Shown piece by piece: positions 4,087 to 20,273 of a stretch of DNA of 64,000 nt. A program made the position numbers and the translations under genes. Every line of letters begins with the position of its first letter. The first letter of the stretch is position 1. The DNA is from Gilvimarinus xylanilyticus. GTDB lineage: Bacteria; Pseudomonadota; Gammaproteobacteria; Pseudomonadales; Cellvibrionaceae. The notes beneath the pieces are model-generated. The model worked only from the letters and a program-made list of their open reading frames with translations, was not told where the DNA came from and did not search any database. The stretch lies in NCBI RefSeq assembly GCF_024195295.1, contig NZ_JAMFTH010000003.1:131501-195500 (forward strand), read 5' to 3'.

Positions 4087-5271
4087 TTAACTTTGCTCCA
4101 GCATAAAGGTGATAGGAAACACAAACTCAAAGTGCTCGGCGGGTAAGGAATCGGGCACCGGCGGGTAGGGGGCGGCATCTTCAATCGCGTCTTCCACCGC
4201 ATCGTCCAGCTGCTTATAACCCGACTCCAGCAACGGCTGAATATCCACCAGCTCGCCATTGCCATCGATCACTACCGCCATGCGCACACTGCCGGTCTGG
4301 CGCAGCTTCATGGCCCGGCGCGGATACTTAATTTCCTGATGGGTCAGCTTAACCAATAAGGCGGTATAGTCTTGCAGCACCTGCAGCGACTCGACCGAGA
4401 AATTGGGCAGGTCCTGCTCTTCTTGCGCGGGGGCCGAGGACTGAGCCTGCGCAACCTCAGTGGAGGGGTCTGGCTCCGGCTCAGCCGGTGATTCGACTGT
4501 ACTGGAGACAGCGGCGCTTATCTCGCCCGCCGGCGTACTGTGCGAGGCAACCTCGGCGGCACTGGCCAACTCGGGCGGTTCGGGTAACGGCTGGGCGGCT
4601 TTCACGACCGACACAGTGGCGGAGGCTTGCGATGACGACTGCGCTGGCGCCTGGGGCTCGGGCGGGGCAAGCCAGCTGGCCACCACTTCGCGGCGCTGGG
4701 CTGTGGGCTCTATGCTCATAAACCGCTCGATATCCTGCCCCGCCGAAGCGCCCAAGAGTGCCGCCTTAAACTCGGTGCTGGGGGGCACCGCGCCAATCCA
4801 ACCCAACAAAAGCAAATTGAAAAAGTTGGGGTCTTCTACGCTGGATAAAGTCTGCCCGTTTAAATAAATCCGCACCCCAGCGCCGTCGGTGGTTTCACTG
4901 ATGCTTAACACGTCGGTGGCCCGCAAGCTTCCCTTAAGCGCGTTAAAGAAATCGGCCAGCGAGCTGGCACTGGCGCGCTGCATATCGGGGCTGGCATTAA
5001 TCGCAATGCTCTGCAAAAACAGACGCGACAGCTTTCCCGCAGTCATCCGGTCGGCGGTAAATTTAAGCACCAGAGCGCGACTTCCCCGTGTATCGATAAC
5101 CGCCTGTGCGGTCTCTGGCTGGCCGGGAGCGTAAAGCCCCATTAAAAACGACTCGCGCTCAAGCTCAACAAAAGGCGCCACCCCCACAGGGGCCGAGCTG
5201 GAACGCACTCCTTGCGCGCTCGCCGTCACACACACCGCCGCGATTATTAAAGCGAAAATCAATCTGCTCAT
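4087..5271 (-). CDS. Periplasmic chalcone-isomerase-like / TonB C-terminal fusion protein
   Basis: The start at ATG 5271 gives a clean signal peptide (MSRLIFALIIAAVCVTASAQ); a GTG twelve bases upstream is possible. Residues about 25-190 look like the bacterial chalcone isomerase-like periplasmic domain (segments LVLKFTADRMTAGKLSRLF and GAGVRIYLNGQ). A Pro/Ala/Glu/Ser-rich linker of about 100 residues follows. The C-terminal 80 residues match a TonB C-terminal domain (YPRRAMKLRQTGSVRM, then YPPVPDSLP and an FVFPI strand). It lacks the N-terminal membrane helix expected of TonB, so it may interact with TonB-box-type partners without being an energy transducer. It is divergent from the dsbD-like gene across about 150 bases. 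Confidence 0.8.
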   Translation of the reverse strand: MSRLIFALIIAAVCVTASAQGVRSSSAPVGVAPFVELERESFLMGLYAPGQPETAQAVIDTRGSRALVLKFTADRMTAGKLSRLFLQSIAINASPDMQRASASSLADFFNALKGSLRATDVLSISETTDGAGVRIYLNGQTLSSVEDPNFFNLLLLGWIGAVPPSTEFKAALLGASAGQDIERFMSIEPTAQRREVVASWLAPPEPQAPAQSSSQASATVSVVKAAQPLPEPPELASAAEVASHSTPAGEISAAVSSTVESPAEPEPDPSTEVAQAQSSAPAQEEQDLPNFSVESLQVLQDYTALLVKLTHQEIKYPRRAMKLRQTGSVRMAVVIDGNGELVDIQPLLESGYKQLDDAVEDAIEDAAPYPPVPDSLPAEHFEFVFPITFMLEQS

Positions 5272-5419: not shown

Positions 5420-7423
5420 ATGAGTTTTATTATTCGCTGCTTTTTACTTTGCGTGGTCTGCTTTGTCAGCCAGACAGGCGTGGCGCAAACCGAGGCCTCG
5501 GGCGATCACGTGCGCGTGCGACTACTGGCCCCGGAACAACTCGCCGCCGGACAAACCCACACGCTGGGTTTTTACTTCGAGGTCGACCCCCACTGGCATG
5601 TGTACTGGCGCAACGCCGGCGACTCGGGTGCGGCACCTAAATTTAATATCCGCAGCAACGGCGCCAGCACTGGCGATATTCAGTGGCCCTTTCCCACCCG
5701 CCTGCCGGTGGAGCATTTAACCAACCTGGGTTACGAAGGCAATGTCGCCTACTTATTTGAGCTGACCCCCAAGGCCGACGCAAATTCGGTAACGCTCAAT
5801 ATCGATCTGGAATGGCTGGTGTGCAAAATCGATTGCATCCCAGGCTTTGGCAGCATGACTACAGAGTTGCCCGTGGGCAGCGAAGCGAGCTGGAGCGCGG
5901 AAGACAAAGCGCTAATAGAAAACTGGCAGGCGCGTATTCCCCAGGCGGCTGCCAACAGCCCCTGGCAAGCCGAGTCGTTACTGACCGGCGCGGCCAATAC
6001 CTTGCAACTTAGCCTGAACGGCAGCGGCGAAGCGCCCGAGGTATTTCCGCTGGACGGCGCGCTGCTGGCGGCGGCCAGCCCCGAACGCAACAGCACCGAC
6101 AACGGCCACCGCTATGCCTTTAAACGCCAGCCGGGCGTCGACCTACCTGCCCACACCGGCTTTGTAATCAGCGACGGCGAACAGGCCTGGCAGCTGGACA
6201 AAGTCCCTCTAGGCAGTGCGCCACCGCCTGAGGCCAATCAACCCCTGTGGTTGTTACTGCTGGCCGCGTTTGTGGGCGGCGTTATTTTAAATTTAATGCC
6301 CTGCGTGTTCCCGGTGTTGTCGATCAAATTATTCGGCCTGATTAACAGCGGCGCAGGCGCCAGTGCTCGTACCCGCGAAGGCTTACTGTACAGCGCCGGA
6401 GTACTGGCTACCTTTGCCGCTCTGGGCGCCTTGCTGCTGGCACTGCGTGCCGGTGGCGCGGCCATTGGCTGGGGCTTTCAGTTGCAGTCCGCCCCCGTGG
6501 TGCTGGGTTTAATTGTTTTATTCTGGCTGATGGCGCTGGCCTTTAGCGGCGTATTTGAGTTCGGCCACCGTTTAATGCAAATGGCAGGCTCCGCGTCGGG
6601 CGGCTCGTTTGTCACCGGTGTGCTCGCCGTGTTTGTCGCCGCGCCTTGCACCGGGCCGTTTATGGGCGCCGCCCTGGGCGCGGCGGCGGTGCTCCCTGCG
6701 GCCTCAGCCATGGCAATATTTTTGGGGCTGGGGGCGGGCCTTGCCGCACCCTTTTTATTGCTGACCTTATCACCGGCGCTACTCGCCCGCCTGCCCCGCC
6801 CCGGCCCCTGGATGGACACCCTGCGCCAGCTTTTCGCCTTTCCTTTATACGCCACGGTTATCTGGCTGCTGTGGGTATTGGGCCAGCTAGCGGGCGACAG
6901 CGGCTGGCTGCTGGGCAGCAGCTTATTACTGACCCTGGCGTTTTGCCTGTGGCTGGGCGGCAAAGGCGGCAAGCTCTGGCGCCTGGTGGCATGGGTGCTC
7001 GCCCTGGCCGCATTGGTGGTCACCTTTGCCCGCTTAGCCCCCAGCGAATCTGCTACCACCGCAGATGATGGCATCTGGCAGGGCTACAATGCCGAATTAA
7101 TTCAGCAGGCCCGCGCCGACAGCCAAGCGGTGTTTATCGACTACACCGCCGCCTGGTGCATTACCTGCCAGGTGAATAAAAAGCTGGTGCTGAATACCGA
7201 ACACACCACCGAGTTGTTTAAGCAGCACAATGTGCTCGCCATTCGCGCCGACTGGACCCGTCACGACCCGGCCATTACTCAGGCGCTGAGCCAACTGGGG
7301 CGCAACTCCGTACCTGTTTACGCCTGGTATGCGCCGGGCGCCGAATCTGCCCAGCTCTTGCCGCAAATTCTGCAAGAGCGCATGATTAATGACCTATTTA
7401 AAACCTCAACAGGAGATCAGTGA
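5420..7423 (+). CDS. Thiol:disulfide interchange protein DsbD/ScsB-like
   Basis: The 667-residue inner-membrane protein would move reducing power from cytosolic thioredoxin to periplasmic thiol proteins. A signal peptide (1-22) is followed by an N-terminal periplasmic domain with Cys135 and Cys139 (LEWLVCKIDC), closer to the ScsB/DUF-type alpha domain than to classical E. coli DsbD. About eight membrane helices then contain the two conserved cysteines in NLMPCVFP and VAAPCTGPF. The C-terminal thioredoxin-like domain has AAWCITC. All three cysteine pairs needed for the electron relay are present. The next gene, a periplasmic redoxin, begins at the last base of the stop codon and is a plausible partner. 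Confidence 0.88.
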   Translation: MSFIIRCFLLCVVCFVSQTGVAQTEASGDHVRVRLLAPEQLAAGQTHTLGFYFEVDPHWHVYWRNAGDSGAAPKFNIRSNGASTGDIQWPFPTRLPVEHLTNLGYEGNVAYLFELTPKADANSVTLNIDLEWLVCKIDCIPGFGSMTTELPVGSEASWSAEDKALIENWQARIPQAAANSPWQAESLLTGAANTLQLSLNGSGEAPEVFPLDGALLAAASPERNSTDNGHRYAFKRQPGVDLPAHTGFVISDGEQAWQLDKVPLGSAPPPEANQPLWLLLLAAFVGGVILNLMPCVFPVLSIKLFGLINSGAGASARTREGLLYSAGVLATFAALGALLLALRAGGAAIGWGFQLQSAPVVLGLIVLFWLMALAFSGVFEFGHRLMQMAGSASGGSFVTGVLAVFVAAPCTGPFMGAALGAAAVLPAASAMAIFLGLGAGLAAPFLLLTLSPALLARLPRPGPWMDTLRQLFAFPLYATVIWLLWVLGQLAGDSGWLLGSSLLLTLAFCLWLGGKGGKLWRLVAWVLALAALVVTFARLAPSESATTADDGIWQGYNAELIQQARADSQAVFIDYTAAWCITCQVNKKLVLNTEHTTELFKQHNVLAIRADWTRHDPAITQALSQLGRNSVPVYAWYAPGAESAQLLPQILQERMINDLFKTSTGDQ

Positions 7424-8746: not shown

Positions 8747-9159
8747 ACTACGACTACAGCGTTACCTTTATCGGCTTTTTTATCGCGTTGCTAACGCTTT
8801 TTGTCCAATCGATTATCGCCGCCGGCAGTAAAGCCAAACAACCGGGGGCGGTACCGGGCAAAATCAGCGACGAACTTTCCCACGACTCGTTTGTATTCCG
8901 CGCCCACCGCACCTTTATGAACTCGCTGGAAAATATGCCGCTGTTTATCGGCAGCGTATTTCTGGGCATTTTTGCCGGTGCCCACCCGCGCTGGTTAGGC
9001 GTGGCGGTCATGGTCTACGCTTTCGCGCGCATTGTGCATATGATTCTTTACTACGCTATTGCCACCGAGAAAAACCCCAGCCCGCGCAGTTACTTTTTTG
9101 GAATTGCGTTGTTGACGCAGATTGGGATTTTGGGGTTGGTGGGGACGGCGTTGGTCTGA
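8743..9159 (+). CDS. MAPEG family integral membrane protein
   Basis: The start ATG 8743 overlaps the preceding stop as ATGA, with GGAGC seven bases upstream; an in-frame ATG at 8731 is less likely. The 138-residue product has four membrane helices. It has the MAPEG signature region FRAHRTFMNSLENMPLFI in the first loop/helix 2 and FARIVHMILYY in helix 3. MAPEG proteins are membrane enzymes of eicosanoid and glutathione metabolism; bacterial members are mostly uncharacterised. The last ~45 codons are duplicated at 10449-10575 as a gene fragment. Confidence 0.88.
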   Translation: MNYDYSVTFIGFFIALLTLFVQSIIAAGSKAKQPGAVPGKISDELSHDSFVFRAHRTFMNSLENMPLFIGSVFLGIFAGAHPRWLGVAVMVYAFARIVHMILYYAIATEKNPSPRSYFFGIALLTQIGILGLVGTALV

Positions 9160-9177
9160 GGTCTGCAGTGTTTTGAC

Positions 9178-9197
9178 CCGCCTGAGGCGGTTTTTTT
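9178..9197 (+). terminator. Rho-independent terminator after MAPEG gene
   Basis: CCGCC TGA GGCGG is followed by seven T residues. A diverged copy lies at 10592-10613 within the duplicated segment. Confidence 0.85.
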
Positions 9198-9200
9198 GTT

Positions 9201-9423
9201 CGCCCGTGTCGCCGGGCGTGGCGAGTTACTTTTCTGTTGTTTGGGCAACAGAAACCTAACGAAAAGAGAAGCCCACCCCGGCGAATGGCCCAAACGGGTG
9301 CCCTCACTACGGTCGATTTTTGAGGGCCGTATCGACAGGACGTCCGTGTCCTGGCGATACTTGCGCAAACGTCCTGTTTGCTTACCCCAAAAAATCAACC
9401 TGCGTTCGGCTCATTCGCAGGGG
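9201..9423 (+). repeat. Structured dispersed repeat, copy A
   Basis: Starts with CGCCCG TGTCGC CGGGCG (hairpin 0), then a hairpin TTCTGTTG/CAACAGAA and a conserved GGGTGCCCTCACT block. The hairpin ATCGACAGGAC/GTCCTGGCGAT-like and the hairpin GCAAAC GTCCT GTTTGC follow, ending near the TTCGGCTC...GCAGG stem. Homologous to copies A', B, C and B' elsewhere in the window. ORFs read from it on either strand are not credible genes. Confidence 0.85.
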
Positions 9424-9498
9424 CTCCTTATAAATAAAGCGACGCTAAAGCGTTACTTTTTATTGATTTAAGGACACCCAAAGATTCGCGAACATCGG

Positions 9499-9548
9499 GA
9501 TCAGGCCTTACATTTTACACATTGTGTTAAATGTATGTCCTGACCCTC
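9499..9548. repeat. REP-like palindrome
   Basis: An imperfect inverted repeat reads ATCAGGCCTTACATTTTAC then, reversed, TAAATGTATGTCCTGACC. The same motif is at 10388-10436 and, in longer form, 10958-11106. The rest of 9481-9680 shows no gene. Confidence 0.7.
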
Positions 9549-9680
9549 ACCCACTCTTCGGTTAAAAAATTGCCTAATGGGTGACCCTCATCTACTTCGG
9601 GACGAGTAAAGCTTAACGCCCACTAGAGGCAACGCTAACCAGCGTGTTGTGGCTACCGGCAGGCGTTGACGTAGGAAGCA

Positions 9681-9710
9681 AAAAGCCCCGTAGCTTGCTA
9701 CGGGGCTTTT
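9681..9710. terminator. Bidirectional terminator downstream of the 9763 gene
   Basis: AAAAGCCCCGTAG, loop CTTG, CTACGGGGCTTTT: a perfect 13-bp stem with T-runs on both strands. It lies just past the stop of the minus-strand gene at 9763. Confidence 0.88.
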
Positions 9711-9762
9711 TGTGTAACTTAAGTAACCAACAATAATGGTGCCGGAAATGTGTTCGCAATAT

Positions 9763-10272
9763 TTAAGAGCGATTCATCGCCTGGAGCTCGGGGATTATTT
9801 TTTCCCAGTTTTTGTCGACAAAGTCTATGTCCGCTTTACTCGGGGGCATTTGTTTTAGCAACATTGCCGTTTTTTCGTTTCCGGCGGCGGGCAGCGCATT
9901 CCCTTTAAGTTTATGTATCACCAAAAGGCCAATCCGCATTTTATTCCGCATGTAATCGCCGTAGCTGTCCCAACTCTGGTTATCCAGTATGGCTTCGGCT
10001 TTGTCATAAAGGCCTTGCTCTTTCAAGCCAGCCTCAAATAATTGGTCTTGTTTGGTGTTGCTAAGTAACATGATATCAGCCGGGTCATCGTAATCGGCGA
10101 ACGCTTCTAAATCCGAAAACTCATCCATCCCGTTTTCGATGGGCCCTAGCTCGGTAGAGGTTGCTGAAATTCGCTGAATAAGCTCCATGGTTAGTGGCTC
10201 GTCGGCGGTGGCGGGAGTAGATATAAACACTAACGCGAATACAGCGCTAAGCAAGGGGGTAGTCCATTTCAT
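9763..10272 (-). CDS. Secreted/periplasmic protein of unknown function
   Basis: The 169-residue product starts at an ATG preceded by GGAG and has a signal peptide (MKWTTPLLSAVFALVFISTPATA, cleavage about residue 23). The mature part is acidic and helical (GPIENGMDEFSDLEAFADYDD; DFVDKNWEKIIPELQ) with no cysteines and no known motif. Its helix pattern resembles small periplasmic helical proteins. It is the only gene between the two copies of a segmental duplication, so it may have been copied in or left between them. The family is not recognised. Confidence 0.75.
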   Translation of the reverse strand: MKWTTPLLSAVFALVFISTPATADEPLTMELIQRISATSTELGPIENGMDEFSDLEAFADYDDPADIMLLSNTKQDQLFEAGLKEQGLYDKAEAILDNQSWDSYGDYMRNKMRIGLLVIHKLKGNALPAAGNEKTAMLLKQMPPSKADIDFVDKNWEKIIPELQAMNRS

Positions 10273-10387
10273 TGAATGATCTCCATGATAAATACAAAGT
10301 AAAAGTGCCTAAACTAAAGCCGGATTAGGGTACGTCTTACACCGTATTGGCTGCTGTGATGTGGATCACGCCATGAGGAACAGCGGT

Positions 10388-10436
10388 GTCAGACCTTACG
10401 TTTTACACCTTGACGTGAAATGTAAGGCCTGACCCT
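10388..10436. repeat. REP-like palindrome
   Basis: AGACCTTACGTTTTACACC pairs with TGAAATGTAAGGCCTGACC across a short TTGACG loop. It is the same motif as 9499-9548 and the 10.96-11.1 kb repeats. Confidence 0.8.
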
Positions 10437-10448
10437 CCTCTGCTCTTT

Positions 10449-10575
10449 CGCCCGCATTGTGCATATGATTCTTTACTACGCCATTGCCACCGAGAAAAAC
10501 CCCAGCCCGCGCAGTTACTTTTTTGGGATTGCGTTGTTGGCGCAGATTGGGATTTTGGGGATGGCGTTGGTCTGA
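10449..10575 (+). pseudogene. Duplicated 3' fragment of the MAPEG gene
   Basis: Encodes ARIVHMILYYAIATEKNP through the C-terminus as in 8743-9159, with an internal loss of a few residues near the end (ILGMALV against ILGLVGTALV) and stop at 10573-10575. No start codon or upstream half is present. Confidence 0.88.
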
Positions 10576-10591
10576 GGTCTGCAGTGTTTTG

Positions 10592-10613
10592 AGCCGCCTG
10601 AGGCGGGCTTTTT
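10592..10613 (+). terminator. Duplicated terminator hairpin
   Basis: AGCCGCC TGA GGCGGGCT followed by TTTTT; a diverged copy of the terminator at 9178-9197. Confidence 0.65.
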
Positions 10614-10617
10614 GTTT

Positions 10618-10839
10618 GCCCGTGTCGCCGGGCGTGGCGAGTTACTTTTCTGTTGTTTGGGCAACAGAAACCTAACGAAAAGAGAAGCCCACCCCGGCGA
10701 ATGGCCCTAACGGGTGCCCTCACTACGGTCGATTTTTGGGGGCCGTATCGACAGGACGTCCGTGTCCTGGCGATACTTGCGCAAACGTCCTGTTTGCTTA
10801 CCCCAAAAAATAAACCTGCGTTCGGCTCATTCGCAGGGG
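10618..10839 (+). repeat. Structured dispersed repeat, copy A'
   Basis: Nearly identical to copy A (9201-9423), with the same three hairpins and GCAAAC/GTTTGC stem. It is the copy carried by the right half of the segmental duplication. Confidence 0.85.
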
Positions 10840-10902
10840 CTCCGTATAAATAAAGCGTCGCGAAAGCGTTACTTTTTATTGATTCAAAGACACCCATAGG
10901 GT

Positions 10903-11106
10903 ATCGGGGTCAAGGGTACCGGGGTCATACAAGGGTACCGGGGTCAAAGGGTACCGGGGTCAGACCTTACAAATCACACCGGGGCCAAATTAGCCTATCT
11001 ATTTCATCGTGTGAAATGCAAAGGGTACCGGGGTCAGACCTTACAAATCACACCGGGGCCAAATTAGCCTATCTATTTCATCGTGTGAAATGTAAGGCCT
11101 GACCCC
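10903..11106. repeat. Tandem GGGTACCGGGGTCA units and a 71-bp direct repeat with REP-like ends
   Basis: GGGTACCGGGGTCA occurs four times with short spacers between about 10909 and 10962, after a variant GGTATCGGGGTCA. A block that runs from AGGGTACCGGGG through ACAAATCACACC to ATCGTGTGAAATG is then present twice head to tail (about 10949-11019 and 11020-11090). The outermost parts, CAGACCTTACA and TGTAAGGCCTGACC, form the same palindrome as the REP-like motifs. No gene is present. Confidence 0.85.
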
Positions 11107-11218
11107 GATACTTTCAGAACAAGAGGTCTTACTCCGATGTCTACAGGGGAATCATTGAGCGCAATCCAACTGCCAAAGATTAGAATTTTTAAAAATTTCA
11201 GCATAAAGCCTCTTTAGG

Positions 11219-11275
11219 CATATAACGCTTAAATCAGGTGCGCCGTAGGCGTCACCTGGATTTACTTGTTAGGCG
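11219..11275 (-). other. attC-like recombination site 1
   Basis: On the minus strand it reads GCCTAAC (R'' box), an arm AAGTAAATCCAGGTGACGCC, a short loop, the partner arm GGCGCACCTGATTTAA, and GCGTTATAT (R' box). The arms pair except for extra bases on one side only, which is the extrahelical-base signature of integron attC sites. The TAA stop of the adjacent gene lies inside the R'' box, a common feature of gene cassettes. Confidence 0.75.
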
Positions 11276-11910
11276 CGTAATGAAAAAGGCTCTTGATTTT
11301 TAAGGAATTCAAAATCTTTTAGACCGCAGTCAAAAATTCTCTCGAAAATACTCTGGTCACCTGCATTATGAGTGCATAGACACAGATAGTAGTTCTCATC
11401 GTTATGAATAGCATAGATAATCCATTCGCCAGTAATTTTCTTCCTTTCTGAGCGTTCTTCTAATGGTTTCTCAAGAGCGTTATAGAGTAGATCATTTATC
11501 ATATCCTTTGTTATGTGATCTGACTTTTCTGGCGATAGTGCTTCATCGACTATTCCCGATAGTCTACTTCCTCTCAGTTCATTCATTATATTTTGAGGGG
11601 TGAAGTGTGCAGAAAAATAATGTTTATGCCATAAACCTTTTAAAGGCTCTCTATTGAACATAGATGGAGGCTTAGTGAAGCTTCCTTCGTCTCCATTTTC
11701 TAGGGAGATTAACTCATCAATTATTTCTTTTGGAAATATCCCAAACTCGTTCTCATAAATATACAAGTCCAGCCAGAATAGCTCACTGATCCTGTTCTTC
11801 AATGAGCAATCTTCGAGATAGAAATCGCTGAATTTTTTCAATTCTTCCGAAGTAAGAGTTACATCCTTGTTGTTTAGAAAGGCAGTGTATTTTCTATTTT
11901 TTTCGAACAT
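11269..11910 (-). CDS. Cassette gene 1, hypothetical protein
   Basis: The 213-residue protein has no signal peptide or membrane helix and is rich in Glu, Lys, Asn and aromatic residues. It uses AT-rich codons unlike the GC-rich neighbours, which suggests foreign origin. Recognisable segments are ELFWLDLYIYENEFGIFPKE and GEWIIYAIHNDENYYLCLCTH; the latter has the alternating strands of a small alpha/beta domain. I know no family for it. The stop codon sits in the R'' box of an attC-like site and the ATG lies about 25 bases after an ATTAGGC core-like sequence (11934-11940). The gene therefore fills a cassette almost completely. Confidence 0.7.
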   Translation of the reverse strand: MFEKNRKYTAFLNNKDVTLTSEELKKFSDFYLEDCSLKNRISELFWLDLYIYENEFGIFPKEIIDELISLENGDEGSFTKPPSMFNREPLKGLWHKHYFSAHFTPQNIMNELRGSRLSGIVDEALSPEKSDHITKDMINDLLYNALEKPLEERSERKKITGEWIIYAIHNDENYYLCLCTHNAGDQSIFERIFDCGLKDFEFLKNQEPFSLRA

Positions 11911-11933
11911 GTTGAACCTATTTTATATGTAGC

Positions 11934-12100
11934 GCCTAATAGCTAATTCATGAGCATGGTCATATATAGACATTATGTGTATATCTACCATATGTTCCTA
12001 GGCCTGAACCTCATCTCCGCATCTATAATATGGCACGCCCAAACCGGAGGTTTTAGCATCACGCGCAAGCGTCGGATAAGGCTTTATCACTTTGTTATAA
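11934..12100 (-). other. Degenerate attC-like site 2
   Basis: A candidate R'' box TTATAAC (minus strand of 12094-12100) lies just after the stop of cassette gene 2. A candidate R' box ATTAGGC (11934-11940) lies just before cassette gene 1. The 167-base interval contains imperfect inverted repeats but pairing of the outer arms is weak. About 50 bases next to the R' box are homologous to 13521-13570. It could be one long attC or two partial sites. Confidence 0.4.
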
Positions 12101-12109
12101 ATTCTTAAG

Positions 12110-12619
12110 CTACGTACTCATGGCCTCCTTGAATTCCTCTGCTTTTTTCTCAAAATTTTCTTGCGCCTGGTAAAACCTGGGCAATCCTCCCACCTCAATA
12201 GAATTTGGAGGAAAAAACTGAACTATATGTCCTCTAGCAGAATGTGCTGCTTTATAGCTATCCATGAGATTTGGGTAGTAGAGTGAGATGATCATCTCAA
12301 CTTGCTCAAGAAAGCCAGCAACAGATGAATCTTTGACTATCTCATATGCTCTTTCCTCTGGCACTTGCCCTTTAACATACCCGATCATGCCAATATAGAT
12401 ACTGCCAAAATAGGATTGCCACTTTGAAAATGAAAGGTAACACTCCTCTAGCTTTTGTCTCCGGTGTTTGAGACTCTCTTGCTTTACTTCGTGATCATGC
12501 TGGGCCTTCTGCCTTTTATTATGGCCCGAATTGGTGAACATCATTACAACAGCTGCAATCACCATCGAGACTAATGCACCGATAATTGCGCCGAGTATTT
12601 GAGGTGGCAGTTCTTTCAT
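12110..12619 (-). CDS. Cassette gene 2, small membrane-anchored protein of unknown function
   Basis: The 169-residue protein starts 20 bases after the GTTATAA core of the next attC-like site. One membrane helix is near the N-terminus (LGAIIGALVSMVIAAVVMMF, about residues 9-28), followed by a charged coiled-coil stretch rich in Lys, Gln, Glu and His. A helical domain with aromatic residues completes it (SFSKWQSYFGSIYIGMIGYV). It is probably anchored in the inner membrane with the rest in the cytosol. The AT-rich composition matches the other cassette genes. No family is recognised. Confidence 0.7.
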   Translation of the reverse strand: MKELPPQILGAIIGALVSMVIAAVVMMFTNSGHNKRQKAQHDHEVKQESLKHRRQKLEECYLSFSKWQSYFGSIYIGMIGYVKGQVPEERAYEIVKDSSVAGFLEQVEMIISLYYPNLMDSYKAAHSARGHIVQFFPPNSIEVGGLPRFYQAQENFEKKAEEFKEAMST

Positions 12620-12637
12620 TCCGAAATCCGATTAGAT

Positions 12638-12713
12638 TTATAACGTATGGGTAAGAGGCCGGCTTTAGCCAGTCCCAGTAAGCGAGGCGAACGATTTTAA
12701 CCAATTGTTATAC
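12638..12713 (-). other. attC-like recombination site 3
   Basis: On the minus strand it begins GTATAACAATTGGTTAA (R''/L'') and ends TTACCCATACGTTATAA (L'/R'). The ends pair well, as GTATAAC..ATTGGTTAA against the reverse complement TTATAACGTATGGGTAA. The central part contains GCCGGC-type stems. It lies 8 bases after the stop of cassette gene 3 and 20 bases before the start of cassette gene 2. Confidence 0.7.
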
Positions 12714-12720
12714 GAAAAAT

Positions 12721-13512
12721 TCACTTTCCCAACTCAAGTATCGGTGGAAGCTTTATGAGGCCAGCTTGCACTATGGTTAGAGCAGCTATGACGATGGTGA
12801 GCCAGAGCATTTTTCTTTGCGTGGATATGCTTTCAAAGTGTTTTCGCTCTTCTTCCTCGTACGACTCTATAGCTGCGATTCCATGACCAGTAATTTTATA
12901 GTGAATCTGAGATTTATTTAGATGCTCTGTTTCTGCGAGAGCGTCTAAGTAAAGCTCTATGCGGTGATGCTGATCGTCACGGCTTGGGTGTAAGTACCAA
13001 CGAATGTCATACATTAAAGTCATTATGTCTAGGGAGGATATTTCTTCCCGACCGTTGAGCTCAGCTTCTAGAACGGTCTTGAGGATGTCAATTCGTTGCT
13101 TGGTGATAAGTTTTTTTCGGTTGTAAATAGTTTGTGAGATTTTGCTATGTGTAGAGTAAATCCATGCTTTTATGTATGGCGCCCTAAAAACAGTTCCGAC
13201 TGCAAAATCCCACCAGCCAAAGTATGTTGTTGTATAAAGTCCATGGTAATGGGTAAATTCAAATTTATTTTCGATTAGTGATTCGAAGTCGTGCGTTGCA
13301 TGTATTGAGTATCTATCTCCGTCGTATTCAAGGCACTCTAAAGAGTTGCCATTTGCTGAGCAGACAATAAGTTCTTTGCCGGCCCCCGTGGATACGCGAG
13401 TCGTATAACAGTTAACTGCGGCACCTTCATCTCCGGATCGCGGTATGCGATTTGGTGATGGCCGGCGCAGAGCTATTCCCAATAAAGCTCTTTTGATTAT
13501 CGATGAAATCAT
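12721..13512 (-). CDS. Cassette gene 3, hypothetical protein with C-terminal membrane helix
   Basis: I place the start at ATG 13512 because a GTTATAC core-like box lies at 13521-13527, so an in-frame ATG at 13566 would fall inside the previous recombination site. The product of 263 residues has a soluble N-terminal part, a Trp/Tyr-rich middle (YHGLYTTTYFGWWDFAVGTVF) and a helical region. It ends with one membrane helix near the C-terminus (MLWLTIVIAALTIVQAGLI) and a short tail, and would be tail-anchored. No family is recognised. Base composition is AT-rich like the other two cassette genes. Confidence 0.65.
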   Translation of the reverse strand: MISSIIKRALLGIALRRPSPNRIPRSGDEGAAVNCYTTRVSTGAGKELIVCSANGNSLECLEYDGDRYSIHATHDFESLIENKFEFTHYHGLYTTTYFGWWDFAVGTVFRAPYIKAWIYSTHSKISQTIYNRKKLITKQRIDILKTVLEAELNGREEISSLDIMTLMYDIRWYLHPSRDDQHHRIELYLDALAETEHLNKSQIHYKITGHGIAAIESYEEEERKHFESISTQRKMLWLTIVIAALTIVQAGLIKLPPILELGK

Positions 13513-13520
13513 GGCTTTGT

Positions 13521-13570
13521 GTATAACAGCTAATTTATTGGCATGGTCATATTCATATATAGACATTGTA
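13521..13570 (-). repeat. Half attC-like sequence homologous to 11934-11985
   Basis: The plus strand reads GTATAACAGCTAATTTATTGG followed by ATGGTCATA...ATATAGACATT; the same order of words occurs at 11936-11985. It carries a GTTATAC-type core on the minus strand right before cassette gene 3. Confidence 0.55.
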
Positions 13571-13962
13571 TATATCAGACCATTCGTTCATATATAAATT
13601 TACGAACCTGCAGGGACCAAGCACCCACTATTTGTTGTTTCTAGTAAGCCGCCCAAAGCCTCCACTGAAAAACAAGCAACTCAGAAACGAAAAATGAAGG
13701 GCATGCGTCAATGATTAGATACTGCCCTGTTCTGTTCCCAGCCTCCTGGCTACGCGACGGTTTTATAATTGTTTTGCGAGACAACAATAAACGCATGTAT
13801 CGGTGAGGAAAATAGTGCCATGGGTTAACCCGTTTTGCAACGGGTTTACGTCGGACGTCTGATGTTGGAGGTCTGATGCAAAACACAAAATGGAAACAAG
13901 GCGACAATGCAACGAACTCGGGTGGGGTGGTCGCCCGTTTACTGATAAGCCAACCCGGTGTG
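13571..13962. other. Gene-free stretch
   Basis: No convincing gene. It contains an inexact run of the GACGTCT/GATGTCT heptamer family near 13852-13880 and then runs into structured repeat B. Short reading frames on the minus strand have no start signal or family resemblance. Confidence 0.6.
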
Positions 13963-14197
13963 CACTACGAAGTGCCGCTTTTGGGCCCCGTATATCCCGC
14001 CGAACGGAGGCCTGCTTTTTGGGGGTACGCGCACAGGACGTGCGCACAAGCATCGCCAGGCCATGGACGGCCTGTCGATGCGGCCCTGAAAAACAGGCTG
14101 GAGTGAGGGCACCCGCAGGGCGGGATCTCCGGGGTGAGTTTCTTGGCTACTTCTTTACTCATCTAAAGAAGTAGCTCACCCGCCCGGCGACCCGGGC
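13963..14197 (-). repeat. Structured dispersed repeat, copy B (inverted)
   Basis: Read on the minus strand it has GCCCG GGTCGC CGGGC, then a hairpin GCTACTTCTTTA/GTAAAGAAGTAGC. The GGTGCCCTCACT block follows, then ATCGACAGGCC/GGCCTGGCGAT and the stem GCGCAC GTCCT GTGCGC, with a 3' end CACTTCGTAG. It is about 90 per cent like copy B' (19771-20046) but lacks a 40-50 bp insert found there. Confidence 0.85.
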
Positions 14198-14346
14198 ATA
14201 CAGAAAACCCCGCTTCCAGCGGCCCAATCCACATTATCAAGAAAAGTAAAACCCCCTTTCTAACATCTATGAAAACGTATGCATAAACTCCGCACCCCTG
14301 CCCGCCTGTGGCAAACTAATCCCCTAAAAATAAACAGGAGACCACC

Positions 14347-17300
14347 ATGGGCCCGTATGCAACCCACACACTGTTAGCCAGCTTGATCGCAGGCAGCGCT
14401 TTACTCAGCGCCTGCCAACCCGATACCCCCGCCACCGAACAAAGCGTGCAAAGCCCGCCCATGACGGGGCAGATGACCGCGTTTCGCTCGGTGCTGGACG
14501 GCAAGCCCCGCGTGTTGACCCTGCGCCTGGGCGATGACTTAAGCCTTGCCTATGACACAGACGCGGGCACTTTATTTAAAGTGTTGGAAGGCCAGGTGGA
14601 GTTTTCCGGCGCGGTGTACGACCAGAAGCACGGCCCCCAGCCTGGGACCCCGGGGCGGGATTACCTGAAAAATGAAAACGCGCGCTGGCAAGGCGACATT
14701 GAATTTAAAGGCCACCGCTTAAATGGCAACACCCCCACCCTGCTGTACGCGGGCGACGGCGTAAAAATAGAGGAAACCCCCCGTTATCAGATGCAGGGGG
14801 AGCAGGCGGTGGTAACGCGCCAGTTTGTGGTCACTGGCGGTACGGCGAGTTTAAGTGGCTTACAACTGCCACAAAACCATTCTGTGAGTGGCGCAGGTGA
14901 ATTGAACGGTGATCGCCTGATTCTGAAACCGGGCACTACGGAATTAACCCTACACTATTCCGCCCTGCCCCAAGCAAGCGAGCAAGCCAACGGGCAAAAC
15001 GATGCACCGGCCGAGGCAGAACAGCACCCGGGCGAAGCATTAATAGCCGGTAGTGACTGCGCCGCCTGCCACAACCCCGAGGTAAAAACCGTGGGGCCGT
15101 CTTACGCCTCCATTGCGCAGCGTTATATCAATGAAAGCGGCGCGCGGGACATGCTGGCGCAAAAGATTATTGACGGCGGTGCGGGCAACTGGGGGCAAAT
15201 ACCCATGACCCCGCACCCCAGCTTAAGCGCCGAAGACGCCGCCACCATGGTGGATTATATTTTCACCCTGGCACCGGCTGCCGAGCCCGTTGCCGACGGT
15301 GCTAACCCCATGGCGCAACCGGCGGTGGCGGTTAACTTAAAAGACACCACGCCCGAGCTAAACGAAAACACGGCGGGCGCGCTGTTTTACCTGCATTATT
15401 TTTCCGGCGACCAACCCAATGTGGACGTACTGCGCAATACGCCACCGGCGCTGGCGGCGCACAGCGCGCAAATTCATTTGCCCGACATAGACGCCTTTGA
15501 GCCGATTAAAGAGCGTTTTGCGTATCAGGTAAAAACCAACTTAAAGCTGGACAAACCGCTGCAAACCACCTTGCGTTTGGTGAGCGACGATGGCTCGTAT
15601 TTGTATTTAAACGGCGAGCTCGCCATCAACCACTGGGGCTTTCACGGCCCCGACCCCATGGATGCCAAGATCGATTTAGAAGCGGGCCTGCACCCACTGG
15701 AAATTATTTATTTTCAGGGCACCTCGGGCGCGGCGTTGTCGCTGCAATGGAAAAACCCCGCCACCGGCAAGTTTGAGTTAATCCCAGAATCCATGCTGGT
15801 GGTTACGCCCAATGATTCGCGCACGGTAGAGCCGGTGGTTACCGACCCGGACATTGTGAAAACCGTGCCCGGAGATACGCGCGAAGTGGCGGGCGTGCAC
15901 CCATCATTCAATTTGCACCAGGCACGCCCAGAAGAATTTGAACCCATGGTGGGCGGGTTGGACTTTTTGCCCGACGGCCGGTTAGTGGTCTCCACCTGGG
16001 ACCCGGAAGGCTCGGTGTATATTGTCTCGGATTGGGATGCGGCGCCGGAAAATATTCAGGTTAAGCGCATCGCCCGCGGGCTTGCCGAACCCTTGGGTTT
16101 AAAAGTGGTGGACGGCGATATTTACGTGCTGCAAAAGCAAGAGCTGACCCGCCTAGTGGATGTGAACGGCGATGAAATTATTGACGAGTATCGCCTGGTA
16201 GCGAACGACTGGTCCGTGACCGGCAACTTTCACGAGTTTGCCTTTGGCCTGGAGTATCAAGACGGCTATTTTTACGGCGCTTTGGCCACCGCCATTTTAC
16301 CCGGCGGCGCCAGTGCCGACCCGCAAGCGCCCGATCGCGGCCACGCGTTTAAGGTGAACAAAAGCACCGGCGAAGTCACCATGATTGCCTCGGGCCTGCG
16401 CACCCCCAACGGCATAGGTTTTGGCATTGACGAGCAACTGTTTATTGCCGACAACCAAGGCGACTGGGTTCCGTCCAGCAAAATTATCGAGTTAACCGAA
16501 GGCGCCTGGTACGGTTCACGCTCGGTGGATTTTGCCGGCACCGAAAACTTAACCGAAACCCTGCCGGTGGTGTGGCTGCCGCAAGATGAAATTGGCAACT
16601 CGCCGGGCGAGCCCGCGCCGCTGAATGTCGGCCCCTACCAAAACCAGATGATTCACGGCGAAGTCACCCACGGCGGTATTAAGCGCGTGTTTGCCGAGCG
16701 CATTAACGGCCGCTTGCAGGGCGCGGTATTTCGCTTTACCCAGGGCTTAGAAGCCGGGGTTAACCGCTTGCAATGGGCGTCCGATGGCTCGCTGATTGTG
16801 GGTGGCGTAGGCAACCCCGGCAACTGGGCCCACGCCGGTGGCAAGTGGTATGGCTTGCAGCGTTTAAACTACAACGGCAATACCGCCTTTGAAATGCTAA
16901 GCGTTAGCGCGCGCAGCGACGGTTTTGAAATTACCTTTACCGAGCCGGTCGCTGCCGGGCAAAACATTACCGCCGAAGATTTTGAGGTTATTCAGTGGCG
17001 TTACGAACCCACCAGCGAATACGGCGGCCCGAAACTGGACAAAGGCCCGCTAAAAGTTGAAGCGTTTTCGCTGTCGCAAGATCGCCGCCGCGCGCAGTTT
17101 AAATTGGCCGGGCTAAAAGAAAACCACTTGGTGTATTTCCGCATTAAGCGCGGCTTTGTGAGCGAAAGCGATAACGAGTTGTGGACCACCGAAGCCTGGT
17201 ACACCTTAAACGCGATTCCGGAAAATAAACCCGTTGCAATCAACACTGACTACCAGCCAAGTAATAACCACTTAAGCGAAGCGGAAAAAACCGACGGCTG

Positions 17301-17928
17301 GCAGTTATTGTTTGACGGTAAAACCCTAGACGGTTTACGCAATTACAACAGCGATCAATTAGGCAAGCGCTGGGTAGTGGACAATGGCGCGCTGCATTTA
17401 ACCGGCCGCACCGCCGCCGACGAAGGCTGGAAAACACCGGGTGGTGGTGATGTAATCATTACCCCGGCGCCCATGGAAAACTTTGAGCTTTATTTGGAAT
17501 GGAAGCTGGCCGAAGACGGCAACAGCGGTATTCTTTATAAGGTAAAAGAAACGCCCGAGCTTGAGCACTCGTACCAGAGCGGGCCCGAGTACCAGCTGCT
17601 GGATAACCCGGGCCACCCGGACGGCAAAATAGAAAAACACCGCGCGGGCGATTTGTACGATTTGATTAAATCCAAATTCGTGACCGTGCTGCCCGCCGGG
17701 CAATGGAACCGCACCCGCCTGGTGGTTAACAACGGCAAAATCGAGCACTGGTTAAACGGCTATAAACTGGTACAGGCGGATACCACCTCGCCCGAGTGGC
17801 AGCAGTTAATTGGCAACAGCAAATTTGCCGACTGGCCCGAGTTTGCCAATAACAGCGAAGGGCATATTGTGTTGCAAGACCATGGCGATAAAGTGTGGTT
17901 TCGCAATATAAAACTCAAACCGCTTTGA
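14347..17928 (+). CDS. Multidomain lipoprotein: cytochrome c, PA14, sugar-dehydrogenase-like propeller, DUF1080
   Basis: A good site (ACAGGAGACCACC) precedes the ATG. The 1193-residue protein has a lipoprotein signal with Cys23 (LLSAC). Residues about 225-310 hold a class I cytochrome c domain with C238-A-A-C-H242 and a likely Met287 ligand (PMTPHP). A PA14-like domain follows (about 340-490, DGSYLYLNGELAINHWG). A six-bladed propeller resembling PQQ-type or 'heme-binding' dehydrogenases comes next (about 530-870, GLDFLPDGRLVVSTW; LRTPNGIGFG). The C-terminal DUF1080/3-keto-disaccharide hydrolase jelly roll starts near 985 (LLFDGKTLDGLRNYNSD). It is probably a surface or periplasmic enzyme oxidising or cleaving oxidised sugars. 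It stands alone with its own terminator. Confidence 0.88.
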   Translation: MGPYATHTLLASLIAGSALLSACQPDTPATEQSVQSPPMTGQMTAFRSVLDGKPRVLTLRLGDDLSLAYDTDAGTLFKVLEGQVEFSGAVYDQKHGPQPGTPGRDYLKNENARWQGDIEFKGHRLNGNTPTLLYAGDGVKIEETPRYQMQGEQAVVTRQFVVTGGTASLSGLQLPQNHSVSGAGELNGDRLILKPGTTELTLHYSALPQASEQANGQNDAPAEAEQHPGEALIAGSDCAACHNPEVKTVGPSYASIAQRYINESGARDMLAQKIIDGGAGNWGQIPMTPHPSLSAEDAATMVDYIFTLAPAAEPVADGANPMAQPAVAVNLKDTTPELNENTAGALFYLHYFSGDQPNVDVLRNTPPALAAHSAQIHLPDIDAFEPIKERFAYQVKTNLKLDKPLQTTLRLVSDDGSYLYLNGELAINHWGFHGPDPMDAKIDLEAGLHPLEIIYFQGTSGAALSLQWKNPATGKFELIPESMLVVTPNDSRTVEPVVTDPDIVKTVPGDTREVAGVHPSFNLHQARPEEFEPMVGGLDFLPDGRLVVSTWDPEGSVYIVSDWDAAPENIQVKRIARGLAEPLGLKVVDGDIYVLQKQELTRLVDVNGDEIIDEYRLVANDWSVTGNFHEFAFGLEYQDGYFYGALATAILPGGASADPQAPDRGHAFKVNKSTGEVTMIASGLRTPNGIGFGIDEQLFIADNQGDWVPSSKIIELTEGAWYGSRSVDFAGTENLTETLPVVWLPQDEIGNSPGEPAPLNVGPYQNQMIHGEVTHGGIKRVFAERINGRLQGAVFRFTQGLEAGVNRLQWASDGSLIVGGVGNPGNWAHAGGKWYGLQRLNYNGNTAFEMLSVSARSDGFEITFTEPVAAGQNITAEDFEVIQWRYEPTSEYGGPKLDKGPLKVEAFSLSQDRRRAQFKLAGLKENHLVYFRIKRGFVSESDNELWTTEAWYTLNAIPENKPVAINTDYQPSNNHLSEAEKTDGWQLLFDGKTLDGLRNYNSDQLGKRWVVDNGALHLTGRTAADEGWKTPGGGDVIITPAPMENFELYLEWKLAEDGNSGILYKVKETPELEHSYQSGPEYQLLDNPGHPDGKIEKHRAGDLYDLIKSKFVTVLPAGQWNRTRLVVNNGKIEHWLNGYKLVQADTTSPEWQQLIGNSKFADWPEFANNSEGHIVLQDHGDKVWFRNIKLKPL

Positions 17929-17970
17929 GCGCGTTGGCCGCTTAAATAGCTACTGCTCAATTACACTTTT

Positions 17971-18001
17971 GCGCCCCGTTAACCGGGGCGCGCGTATTTT
18001 T
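17971..18001 (+). terminator. Rho-independent terminator
   Basis: GCGCCCCG TTAAC CGGGGCGC followed by GTATTTTTA, 40 bases after the large lipoprotein gene. Confidence 0.85.
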
Positions 18002-18156
18002 ACTGGTTTATACGCACTCTGCACGCTCGGCGTGGTGCCTGCGACGGTCCGTTAGCGGGCGCGTTTTTCATCAAACTTATGGCACTTCTATTAGTAACTG
18101 GCTTATCCGGCTGTTAGTCGCTACCATTTACCATCCATGCGATACAAGGATAGGTT

Positions 18157-19347
18157 ATGAAGCTCCCAGCCCCCATCAAAGCAGCAACCCTGTTGCTCGC
18201 CTGCAGCGCCTCGCAGTCTTACGCCATCAGCGAAGAATTTATCGACCCCGAAGACGGCATGCTGGATGCCAGCCAGTTTTTAAGCCAGCACATGCTGGGC
18301 TTTTTGCCCGTGCCCATCATTATTACCGAACCGGCCACTGGCAATGGCCTGGGGGTTATGGGTGTGTTTTTCCACGAGTCCGAGGCACAAAAGCAAGGCA
18401 AACAAACCACCGGGATCATCCCCGAAAACATCAGCGTATTAGGCGCGGCGGCCACCGAAAACGGCAGTAAATTTGGCGGCGCCGGGCACATGGGGTTTTG
18501 GCGCGGCGATACCATTCGCTACAAGGGCGGCATAGGTTACCCGGATATGAATCTGGATTTTTACCGTATCGCCAACGTCGATTTGCAAAACCCCATTGAG
18601 CTGAACGTAAGTGGCCCGGCCATACTGCAAAAACTCACCTTTCGCCTGGGCGACAGCAAATGGTTTGCGGGCTTTTACCAAACCTATCAGCACATGGAAA
18701 CCAAGCTCGCCGAGGATATTAATATCGACCTGCTGCCCGACGATGAGCTGAACGAAAAAGTCGAGGCGTTTTTGCAAAACCGCCTCAACATCAGCGAAGA
18801 CACCTCGGGCCTGGGCTTGATTCTTGAGTATGATTCGCGCGACAACCCCATGAACCCCGAGGCCGGTTACAACTACCGCGCCCGCGCCGTGCGCTTTGAC
18901 GACGCCATTGGCAGTGATTTGAACTACACCCAGTATCAATTTACCGGGCTTAATTACTGGAAGCTGAGCGACACCTTCAACCTGGGCCTGCGCCTGGATT
19001 ACCAAAGCGTGGAGGCCGCCAGCGGCGAAACCCTGCCCCCCTACGCCCTGCCCGGCTTGCGCATGCGCGGTGTGCCCGCCGCCCGCTACCAGAATAACCA
19101 GGCCTTTATCACCGAAATTGAAGCCACCTACAAACTGACACCACGCTGGCACCTTAAAGGCTTTGGCGGCGCGGGCTTTGTCGCCGACAGCTGGAGCAAC
19201 CTAACCAGCGACGCCGAAGACGTAGAAAGCTACGGCACCGGGTTTCGCTACCTGATCGCCAAGCGCTACGGCTTTACCATGGGCGTGGATGTGGCCTGGG
19301 GGCCGGAGGAGTCCGCTTACTACATTCAAGCCGGTTCCAGTTGGTAA
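18157..19347 (+). CDS. Outer-membrane beta-barrel protein of the Omp85/BamA superfamily without POTRA domains
   Basis: The 396-residue protein has a signal peptide (cleavage about residue 23, SQSYA) and a barrel of alternating strands ending in Trp, with the typical C-terminal outer-membrane strand (YYIQAGSSW). Internal LGLILEYDSRDNPMNPEAGY matches the first strands of the Omp85/surface antigen D15 barrel, and LRGVPAARYQ resembles its conserved xRGF loop region (LRMRGVPA). No POTRA repeats are present, unlike BamA or TamA. It is probably a patatin-less short Omp85 homologue of unknown function. It is monocistronic. Confidence 0.82.
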   Translation: MKLPAPIKAATLLLACSASQSYAISEEFIDPEDGMLDASQFLSQHMLGFLPVPIIITEPATGNGLGVMGVFFHESEAQKQGKQTTGIIPENISVLGAAATENGSKFGGAGHMGFWRGDTIRYKGGIGYPDMNLDFYRIANVDLQNPIELNVSGPAILQKLTFRLGDSKWFAGFYQTYQHMETKLAEDINIDLLPDDELNEKVEAFLQNRLNISEDTSGLGLILEYDSRDNPMNPEAGYNYRARAVRFDDAIGSDLNYTQYQFTGLNYWKLSDTFNLGLRLDYQSVEAASGETLPPYALPGLRMRGVPAARYQNNQAFITEIEATYKLTPRWHLKGFGGAGFVADSWSNLTSDAEDVESYGTGFRYLIAKRYGFTMGVDVAWGPEESAYYIQAGSSW

Positions 19348-19434
19348 GCCCATGGCCAAAGGCAAACTGATTCGCTGGAACGAGGCTGCTGCTTTCGCAA
19401 CACATTGCTGAAATTGAATTTCAGCCTTCAATAT

Positions 19435-19664
19435 GCCCGTATCGCCGGGCGTTGCGAGGTACTTTTGGTCTTGGCCAAAAGTACCCAAAAGCCGCGCCCC
19501 AACATCTGGCCCTGCGGGTCCCCTCATTCCAATCGATTTTAGCGGGCCGTATCGATAGGCCGTCCGTGGCCTAGCGATACTTGCGCAAACGTCCTGTTCG
19601 CTTACCCGCTAAAATAGATTTCCATTCGGCCTGGATGTAAACGGGGCAAAAAAGCACTTCGTAG
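19435..19664 (+). repeat. Structured dispersed repeat, copy C
   Basis: GCCCG TATCGC CGGGC is followed by a long hairpin GGTACTTTTGG TCTTGG CCAAAAGTACC and CCTGCGGGTCCCCTCATT. Then come ATCGATAGGCC/GGCCTAGCGAT, GCAAAC GTCCT GTTCGC and the 3' end GCACTTCGTAG. The stems differ from copies A and B by paired, compensatory changes. The 85 bases before it and about 100 bases after it hold no gene. Confidence 0.85.
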
Positions 19665-19770
19665 CACGCACTTGTTTGGTTTAGTCGGAAGCGGGGCGAA
19701 ACCCCCAGACGGTTCTACGCTTTCAGCTCTGGTTAAAAGTCAATTTCTCCCATAACTGAGTCGAACATGT

Positions 19771-20046
19771 GTCCGCTACGAAGTGTTGCTTTTGGCCCCG
19801 TATATCCCGCCGAACGGAGGCCTGCTTTTTGGGGGTACGCGCACAGGACGTGCGCACAAGCATCGACAGGCCATGGACAAGGTGAATTGCGCAGCAAGAG
19901 AGGGTGCCCTGGGGTACGGCCTGTCGATGCGGCCCTCAAAAACAGGCTGGAGTGAGGGAACCCGCAGGGCGGGATCTCCGGGGTGAGTTTCTTGGCTACT
20001 TCTTTACTCATCTAAAGAAGTAGCTCGCCCGCCCGGCGATACGGGC
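19771..20046 (-). repeat. Structured dispersed repeat, copy B' (inverted)
   Basis: On the minus strand it has the same architecture as copy B, including the AGCTACTTCTTT/AAAGAAGTAGCT hairpin, with an extra segment of 40-50 bases between the halves of the ATCGACAGG hairpin. It faces copy C across about 100 bases. Confidence 0.85.
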
Positions 20047-20273
20047 TTATCAAACAAGAACCGGGCTTCAGCATGAAGCCAAACAACAGCTCCCCTAACC
20101 CAGGCAACCTTCTCACGCACCTTGTTATCGCCAATGACATAAACCCCAACCCACAACGGTTGCCCTGGCATAAGCAGCATTCGAGTAACAGATGGCTTTT
20201 CAACGCTCAGCTAAACAATTTCGACCTCTGGCCGATAGAGGTTCTATCAACGACCTAATGATAAGGACTTTAA

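Follow-up and report, generated by a model that had tools for sequence, protein, structure and literature searches.

The closest described system to the repeats reported here is the RNA motif TwoAYGGAY (RF01731 in Rfam). Rfam models the core alone, gives it no known function and types it as cis-regulatory, and Weinberg et al. 2010 (PMC2864571) tabulate it as a probable RNA, with human gut, gamma-proteobacteria and Clostridiales as its sources, grading a cis-regulatory role as 'probably not'. A match to the CsrA-binding site motif was proposed earlier in a passage of PMC4333381, and the other publications naming TwoAYGGAY treat it, where they mention it, as an RNA motif or a structure example; no paper in the literature searched, as far as the sections naming the family go, presented it as a repeat or mobile element. 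Here we followed up a repeat at 9202-20046 of a 64,000-nucleotide (nt) stretch of Gilvimarinus xylanilyticus DNA (contig NZ_JAMFTH010000003.1, positions 131,501 to 195,500), hereafter the window. An earlier note had described five copies with one common layout, and all five (A, A', B, C and B') were located. We propose, with a probability of about 0.6, that these repeats are mostly single-arm copies of a non-autonomous, gene-free mobile element, the core of which would be selected as RNA and putatively binds CsrA/RsmA. The proposal draws on the observed structure and covariation of the repeat, its dispersal, its inverted twin form, one filled and empty site, and switches of one hairpin type behind matching flanks. 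The full unit would comprise two long arms in inverted orientation, each ordered from the outside inwards as a terminal hairpin (H1), a long hairpin (H2) with replaceable sequence but preserved pairing, a small hairpin (H3) and a closed core that holds two GGA-loop hairpins.

The catalogued core and its dispersal

The core of the repeat matched RF01731 on the minus strand in copies A, A' and C and on the plus strand in B and B'; the earlier note had described the opposite strand. Four of the five copies reached the Rfam gathering score of 43 bits, namely A (9304-9407, minus strand, 47.4 bits), A' (10684-10846, minus strand, 48.9 bits), B (13980-14142, plus strand, 59.2 bits, the best match in the genome) and the core hairpins of C (19544-19607, minus strand, 43.3 bits). 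The core of B' (19790-19991, plus strand, 37.4 bits) fell under this score and is interrupted by a loop insert. Across the whole genome (3.93 Mb) there were 24 matches, 17 of them above the cut-off. The earlier note's caution that the family might already be catalogued held for the core and not for the larger arm and twin setting, which was not found in the literature searched.

A profile search of fetched regions found 32 copies of the multi-hairpin arm (about 230-270 nt) in the G. xylanilyticus genome, and all eight Gilvimarinus genomes carried the family. Among 58 genomes of relatives (its own included), at least 17 had a match, including all eight of the genus, and at least 10 had one above the cut-off; the carriers represented at least 10 of 51 genera. 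Among 369 gamma-proteobacterial genomes (again with its own), at least 24 had a match and at least 16 had one above the cut-off, and ten of these 24 carriers had 6 or 7 matches each, a patchy and multi-copy pattern. These counts are lower bounds, with 7 candidates scored per genome in the class survey and at most 39 in the survey of relatives. No RF01731 match was observed in 14 control genomes. The five copies described in the earlier note are a small sample of a family that is genus-wide and patchily class-wide. In the G. xylanilyticus genome, 22 of the 32 copies were within 250 nt downstream of an open reading frame (ORF) in the same direction, by simple ORF calls without a control.

Covariation, strand preference and GGA loops

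Selection for structure, suggested earlier from stem pairs that change together, was supported by covariation and pairing tests and by the strand preference of the core. Compensatory changes were observed in 23 of 55 stem pairs among 21 own-genome copies, a number reached in 0 of 500 shuffles, and 97.7% of the pairing cells were paired, versus 90.2% after shuffling. Sliding the partner by 1-3 columns reduced pairing to 34-45%. This alignment contained 21 of the 32 own-genome copies, the other 11 being omitted as partial, carrying loop inserts or not chosen, and the tested structure was predicted from the very copies tested. A second test used 92 genus copies, after 132 profile matches had been reduced to 93 by filters on completeness, length, score, flank and duplication. 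This test, which we wrote to mimic R-scape and ran with 40 null sets, found 7 pairs with E < 0.05, every one of which belonged to the 60 pairs of the structure. Mixing 25 sequences for a covariance model gave a poor result with 6 pairs, and the model was discarded.

On the Rfam strand, the Watson-Crick pairs of the core were estimated to have changed 142 times to another Watson-Crick pair, 67 times to G-U, 15 times to A-C and 62 times to a mismatch. The excess of G-U points to one strand, since the A-C and mismatch counts are close to the 1:4 of a rough no-selection expectation; the favoured strand is the minus strand for A, A' and C. Both the strand and covariation tests rest on a tree of repeats that are probably subject to gene conversion, and the structure they used was predicted from the copies themselves on the Rfam strand, a choice that can tilt results towards G-U. 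Selection on the core probably acted on RNA or on a single DNA strand, the GGA loops being the part that stays constant.

Both core loops carried GGA in 88 of the 92 genus copies, and the GGA columns were 97-100% conserved versus a mean of 79%, with numerous loops reading NGGAC or AGGAC instead of AYGGAY. The first loop contained GGA, as judged by eye, in all 25 sequences of a cross-family alignment. GGA was also observed in the H6 loop of 90 of the 92 genus copies, 34 of which had the loop ACAGGACGTT. The CsrA/RsmA consensus is ACARGGAYGU with GGA in a hairpin loop, and the H6 loop offers such an ACARGGAYGU-like hairpin-loop context. Because the GGA loops are constant and CsrA/RsmA is the best-known reader of such loops, those of the core may be CsrA/RsmA sites.

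Within the window, copy A (9202-9432, plus strand) contains H1, H2, H3, the core and a tail, while A' (10618-10848, plus strand) has 96% identity to it. Copy B (13963-14205, minus strand) carries an H2 of the GCTACTTCTTTA type. Copies C (19435-19670, plus strand) and B' (19771-20046, minus strand) form the left and right arms of an inverted twin, separated by a spacer without strand (19671-19770). The stems quoted in the earlier note proved correct, both those that change together between copies (CAGGAC/GTCCTG, CAGGCC/GGCCTG, TAGGCC/GGCCTA) and the last stem (GCAAAC/GTTTGC in A, GCGCAC/GTGCGC in B); in copy C the last stem was found to contain a mismatch (GCAAAC/GTTCGC). The three unrelated versions of H2 were likewise recovered. 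The shared end sequence given in the earlier note, CACTTCGTAG or something very near it, is present at the end of B, B' and C and absent at the end of A and A'. A terminator-like hairpin, H0, was observed with a T-run immediately outside A (9178-9200, plus strand) and also outside A' (10594-10617, plus strand), B (14200-14222, minus strand) and B' (20054-20080, minus strand); by eye, a variable hairpin was frequent at this position in other copies too. An upstream MAPEG gene end is duplicated along with copy A (9014-9139 and 10439-10564, in blocks 9014-9432 and 10439-10848), 1.4 kb apart. Because A and A' also share this gene end, they more probably arose through segmental duplication than through two separate insertions. 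A separate observation concerns 11200-13620, where three minus-strand ORFs (11269-11910, 12110-12619 and 12721-13566) are accompanied by attC-like sequences (by eye) in an integron-cassette-like arrangement; two had no Pfam match and one a sub-threshold match. Positions 11265-11950 were 98% identical to DNA elsewhere in genome G001.

The insert in the B' core is a 39-nt module of two small hairpins, here called X, which directly follows GGAC in the core loop (19879-19917, plus strand) and is absent from B. When 537 kb of Gilvimarinus DNA were scanned for the pattern, 22 distinct examples emerged. They begin with NGGA, mostly followed by (C/G)AAGGTGAAT, and continue with a variable hairpin whose arms match, AGAGAGG or nearly so, and a second hairpin usually looped by CTGG. 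Twenty were flagged in or beside element copies, with L041:3444 and L114:1042 elsewhere. By context, 19 were in core loops, while L042:7409 and the two outlying examples were in a different hairpin, GCGC-AGGGA-GCGC. A loose version of the pattern gave two matches in 242 kb of other genomes, neither resembling X, and four loci tested gave no other Rfam family at E 0.5. A second insert, Y, consists of GTGAATCCCTTCAC-like hairpins beside H2 (L035, L038, L042, L045 and others), and seven of nine examples were in or near element copies.

Inverted twins, hairpin exchange and insertion

The larger unit appears to be an inverted twin, a form not visible from the five copies alone and observed in a distant family, f181 (genomes G215, G325 and G419). 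Thirteen of 15 f181 loci consisted of two convergent arms, one had the opposite order and one a single arm; these loci accounted for 20 of the 21 RF01731 matches listed for the three genomes, one match in G215 being left out. One arm was partial in three of the 13 twins. Most twins had one arm with a strong profile match and one with a weak match, and both were weak in L158 and L160. The 11 twins measured spanned 548-704 nt from one profile end to the other, with ten in the range 619-704, to which the outer hairpins add more, and their ends resembled GGTGGATCGTTTCGCACGCC and its inverse by eye. At 33 loci of other genomes, an inverted match was found in 14, comprising five convergent partners (L075, L127, L135, L136 and L140, with L127 and L135 matching across 85-97 nt only), one divergent partner (L133), five core stems and three short matches. 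A different repeat of about 270 bp, with ends like GGGAATCTCTGC, was observed inside an f181 twin arm (L147, 3505-3775) and had many copies in G215 and several in G419.

Evidence of insertion came from the L048 twin (6034-6707, about 675 nt), which has on either side a gene that directly neighbours the other in five of seven relatives. At the empty site the gap between matched gene ends was 7 nt in G003 and G007, 14 nt in G002, 66 nt in G001 and 65 nt in G006; G004 and G005 were not assessable, each having one side without a match. Since the flanking genes are adjacent in five relatives, the simplest reading is that the twin was inserted in the G. xylanilyticus lineage. A paralogous twin has 86% identity across the arms, and the L048 insert holds about 50 nt per side absent from this paralogue and from G003 and G007. 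Copy L042:9680-9964 is within about 410 nt missing from G003 and G007, and the roughly 120 nt of extra DNA on one side makes it weaker evidence than L048. The idea that H0 was a pre-existing terminator and always the target found no support, the empty-site gene pair in G003 and G007 having no terminator by eye; H0 is nonetheless outside H1 in window copies A, A', B and B'.

H2 types differed behind matching flanks. Among 24 flank-matched copy pairs between the own genome, G003 and G007, the type was kept in 6 and changed in 18, several pairs sharing one copy and orthology being judged by the 55-nt flank alone. In L039 compared with L108:3168, H2 was replaced while flank and body were each 86% identical, and the C/B' twin had its two types in reversed order in G003 and G007.

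Y1 transposase matches were present in seven of eight Gilvimarinus genomes, and no Y1 gene flanked by arms was seen. A Y1 transposase as obligate partner found no support, carriers G007, G419 and G130 having no Y1 match. One Y1 match (L043, about 4785-5117) lies about 1.5 kb from two element copies. In the window, GGGGTCAGRCCTTACA occurred six times within 9497-11106, in both orientations and with at most 2 mismatches (0.06 expected); a GGGGWSAS motif, which fits these repeats, is reported in a passage on the terminal inverted repeats (TIRs) of Y1 transposases.

Competing explanations and known systems

The earlier note had offered an RNA family and a non-autonomous mobile element as alternatives; both apparently apply to the same DNA, the core of which was already a known RNA. 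Spread of the unit as DNA is suggested by the apparently inserted L048 twin, by the twin form and by the patchy occurrence. The unit would move into intergenic spaces through an enzyme encoded elsewhere. It would land or survive between genes, often behind 3' ends, and single arms would be twins that have decayed or been split. The core would be transcribed on its RNA strand, and that strand would be retained for the binding of its GGA hairpins to an RNA-binding protein, with one of the CsrA/RsmA kind the likeliest. A bolder version, which we consider doubtful, has a selfish element spreading CsrA-type decoys, the GGA hairpins of each copy titrating the regulator and the GGA loops serving as landing sites for the roughly 40-nt X.

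Several observations weigh against a mobile element with an RNA core. The element ends are not clean, because both filled sites have at least 50 nt of unmatched DNA beside the arms. Of the target-site patterns that the earlier note had suggested looking for, no target-site duplication was seen by eye in two empty-site comparisons and 11 f181 twins. Many sites are common to several species, so movement would be rare or old. The G. xylanilyticus genome has only three close twins among its 32 copies (C/B' and two in L048), the remainder being single or more widely spaced, and A/A' looks like a duplication. No transposase was found, three carriers having no Y1 (HUH) match as noted above, and the share of genomes with Y1 genes was just a little higher among carriers (17 of 20) than among non-carriers (12 of 20). 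Neither the Gilvimarinus arm nor an f181 twin matched anything in plasmid or phage collections, and three core or H2 patterns had no exact counterpart in viral contigs. The strand preference of the core was not common to H1 (G-U 2, A-C 8) or H2 (13 and 9), the second loop was, by eye, without GGA in 5 of the 25 sequences aligned across families (20 had it), and promoter-like sites showed no clear excess (14 found versus 9.8 expected, standard deviation 3.2).

A rival explanation is a family of dispersed chromosomal regulatory RNAs, acting as CsrA/RsmA sponges or 3'-end elements, that arose by ordinary duplication and gene conversion and are not mobile. The conservation of the GGA columns, the core strand preference, the many sites common to species and the duplication of A/A' together with gene DNA favour this view, as do the H2 switches behind matching flanks, which resemble conversion. 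It is nevertheless unlikely, if still a serious contender, given the patchy multi-copy presence over distant families, a whole twin between genes adjacent in five relatives and an inverted twin form with similar ends. Movement as single-stranded DNA by RAYT/TIRYT (Y1 HUH) enzymes would make the repeat a giant REPIN/TIR-type element and its covariation a property of DNA hairpins. Repetitive extragenic palindromic (REP) and TIR families are described in passages of PMC3733652 and PMC3116915 with inverted doublets, heterodimers and sites near gene 3' ends, and Y1 matches are frequent in the genus. However, three element carriers have none, the arms are several times REP length and the one-strand preference of the core fits RNA at least equally well, and we regard this explanation as improbable. 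Most improbable of all is that the repeat is a structured element that terminates transcription or stabilises 3' ends and has spread because of what it does to neighbouring genes: 22 of 32 copies are just downstream of a same-direction ORF and terminator-like hairpins adjoin four of the five window copies, but the hairpin and T-run are outside the conserved arm, and in copies behind same-direction ORFs the favoured core strand is antisense to the upstream gene.

The mobile element with an RNA core that we favour shares with TwoAYGGAY (RF01731) two GGA-loop hairpins closed by an outer stem. Unlike the Rfam motif, which is the core alone, the core here is within a larger dispersed arm with H1, H2 and H3 and has an inverted twin form. 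TwoAYGGAY has been an RNA motif without assigned function since 2010, and if it belongs to a dispersed element that is twin-armed in some cases, its patchy occurrence in multiple copies would be explained. The element setting makes its function testable through the mover, the transcription of the core and the titration of CsrA/RsmA; if titration is true, a mobile element would tune a global regulator through copy number. X is similar to the mitochondrial DNA double-hairpin elements in being a tiny two-hairpin piece inside the loops of other hairpins, and differs in being bacterial, in its conserved GGTGAAT and AGAGAGG segments and in having only putative mobility. It would be a bacterial parallel of these organelle elements, and if the decoy reading is true, hairpins move into hairpins.

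Like REPINs and the REP/TIR families with RAYT/TIRYT, as passages of PMC3116915 and PMC3733652 describe them, the element is non-coding and near gene ends, and has inverted doublets as well as single copies. An inverted doublet as the unit was observed in f181 (13 of 15 loci), and of 20 carriers 17, rather than all, had a Y1 transposase match in their own genome. Its arms are 230-270 nt versus 20-40, and its core is multi-hairpin and covarying. Like NEMIS, ERIC and RUP, bacterial miniature inverted-repeat transposable elements (MITEs) covered in a passage of PMC3733652, it is gene-free, folded and inserted beside genes, and both filled and empty sites were found (one twin versus five relatives, one copy versus two). 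MITEs are given there as 70-300 bp with 15-30-bp TIRs, whereas the twin here is mostly 620-700 nt or more, with no target-site duplication seen. The variant with long twin arms, a replaceable hairpin and a loop module was not found described in the literature searched; the element is not categorically new, being a known RNA motif within a known kind of genomic repeat.

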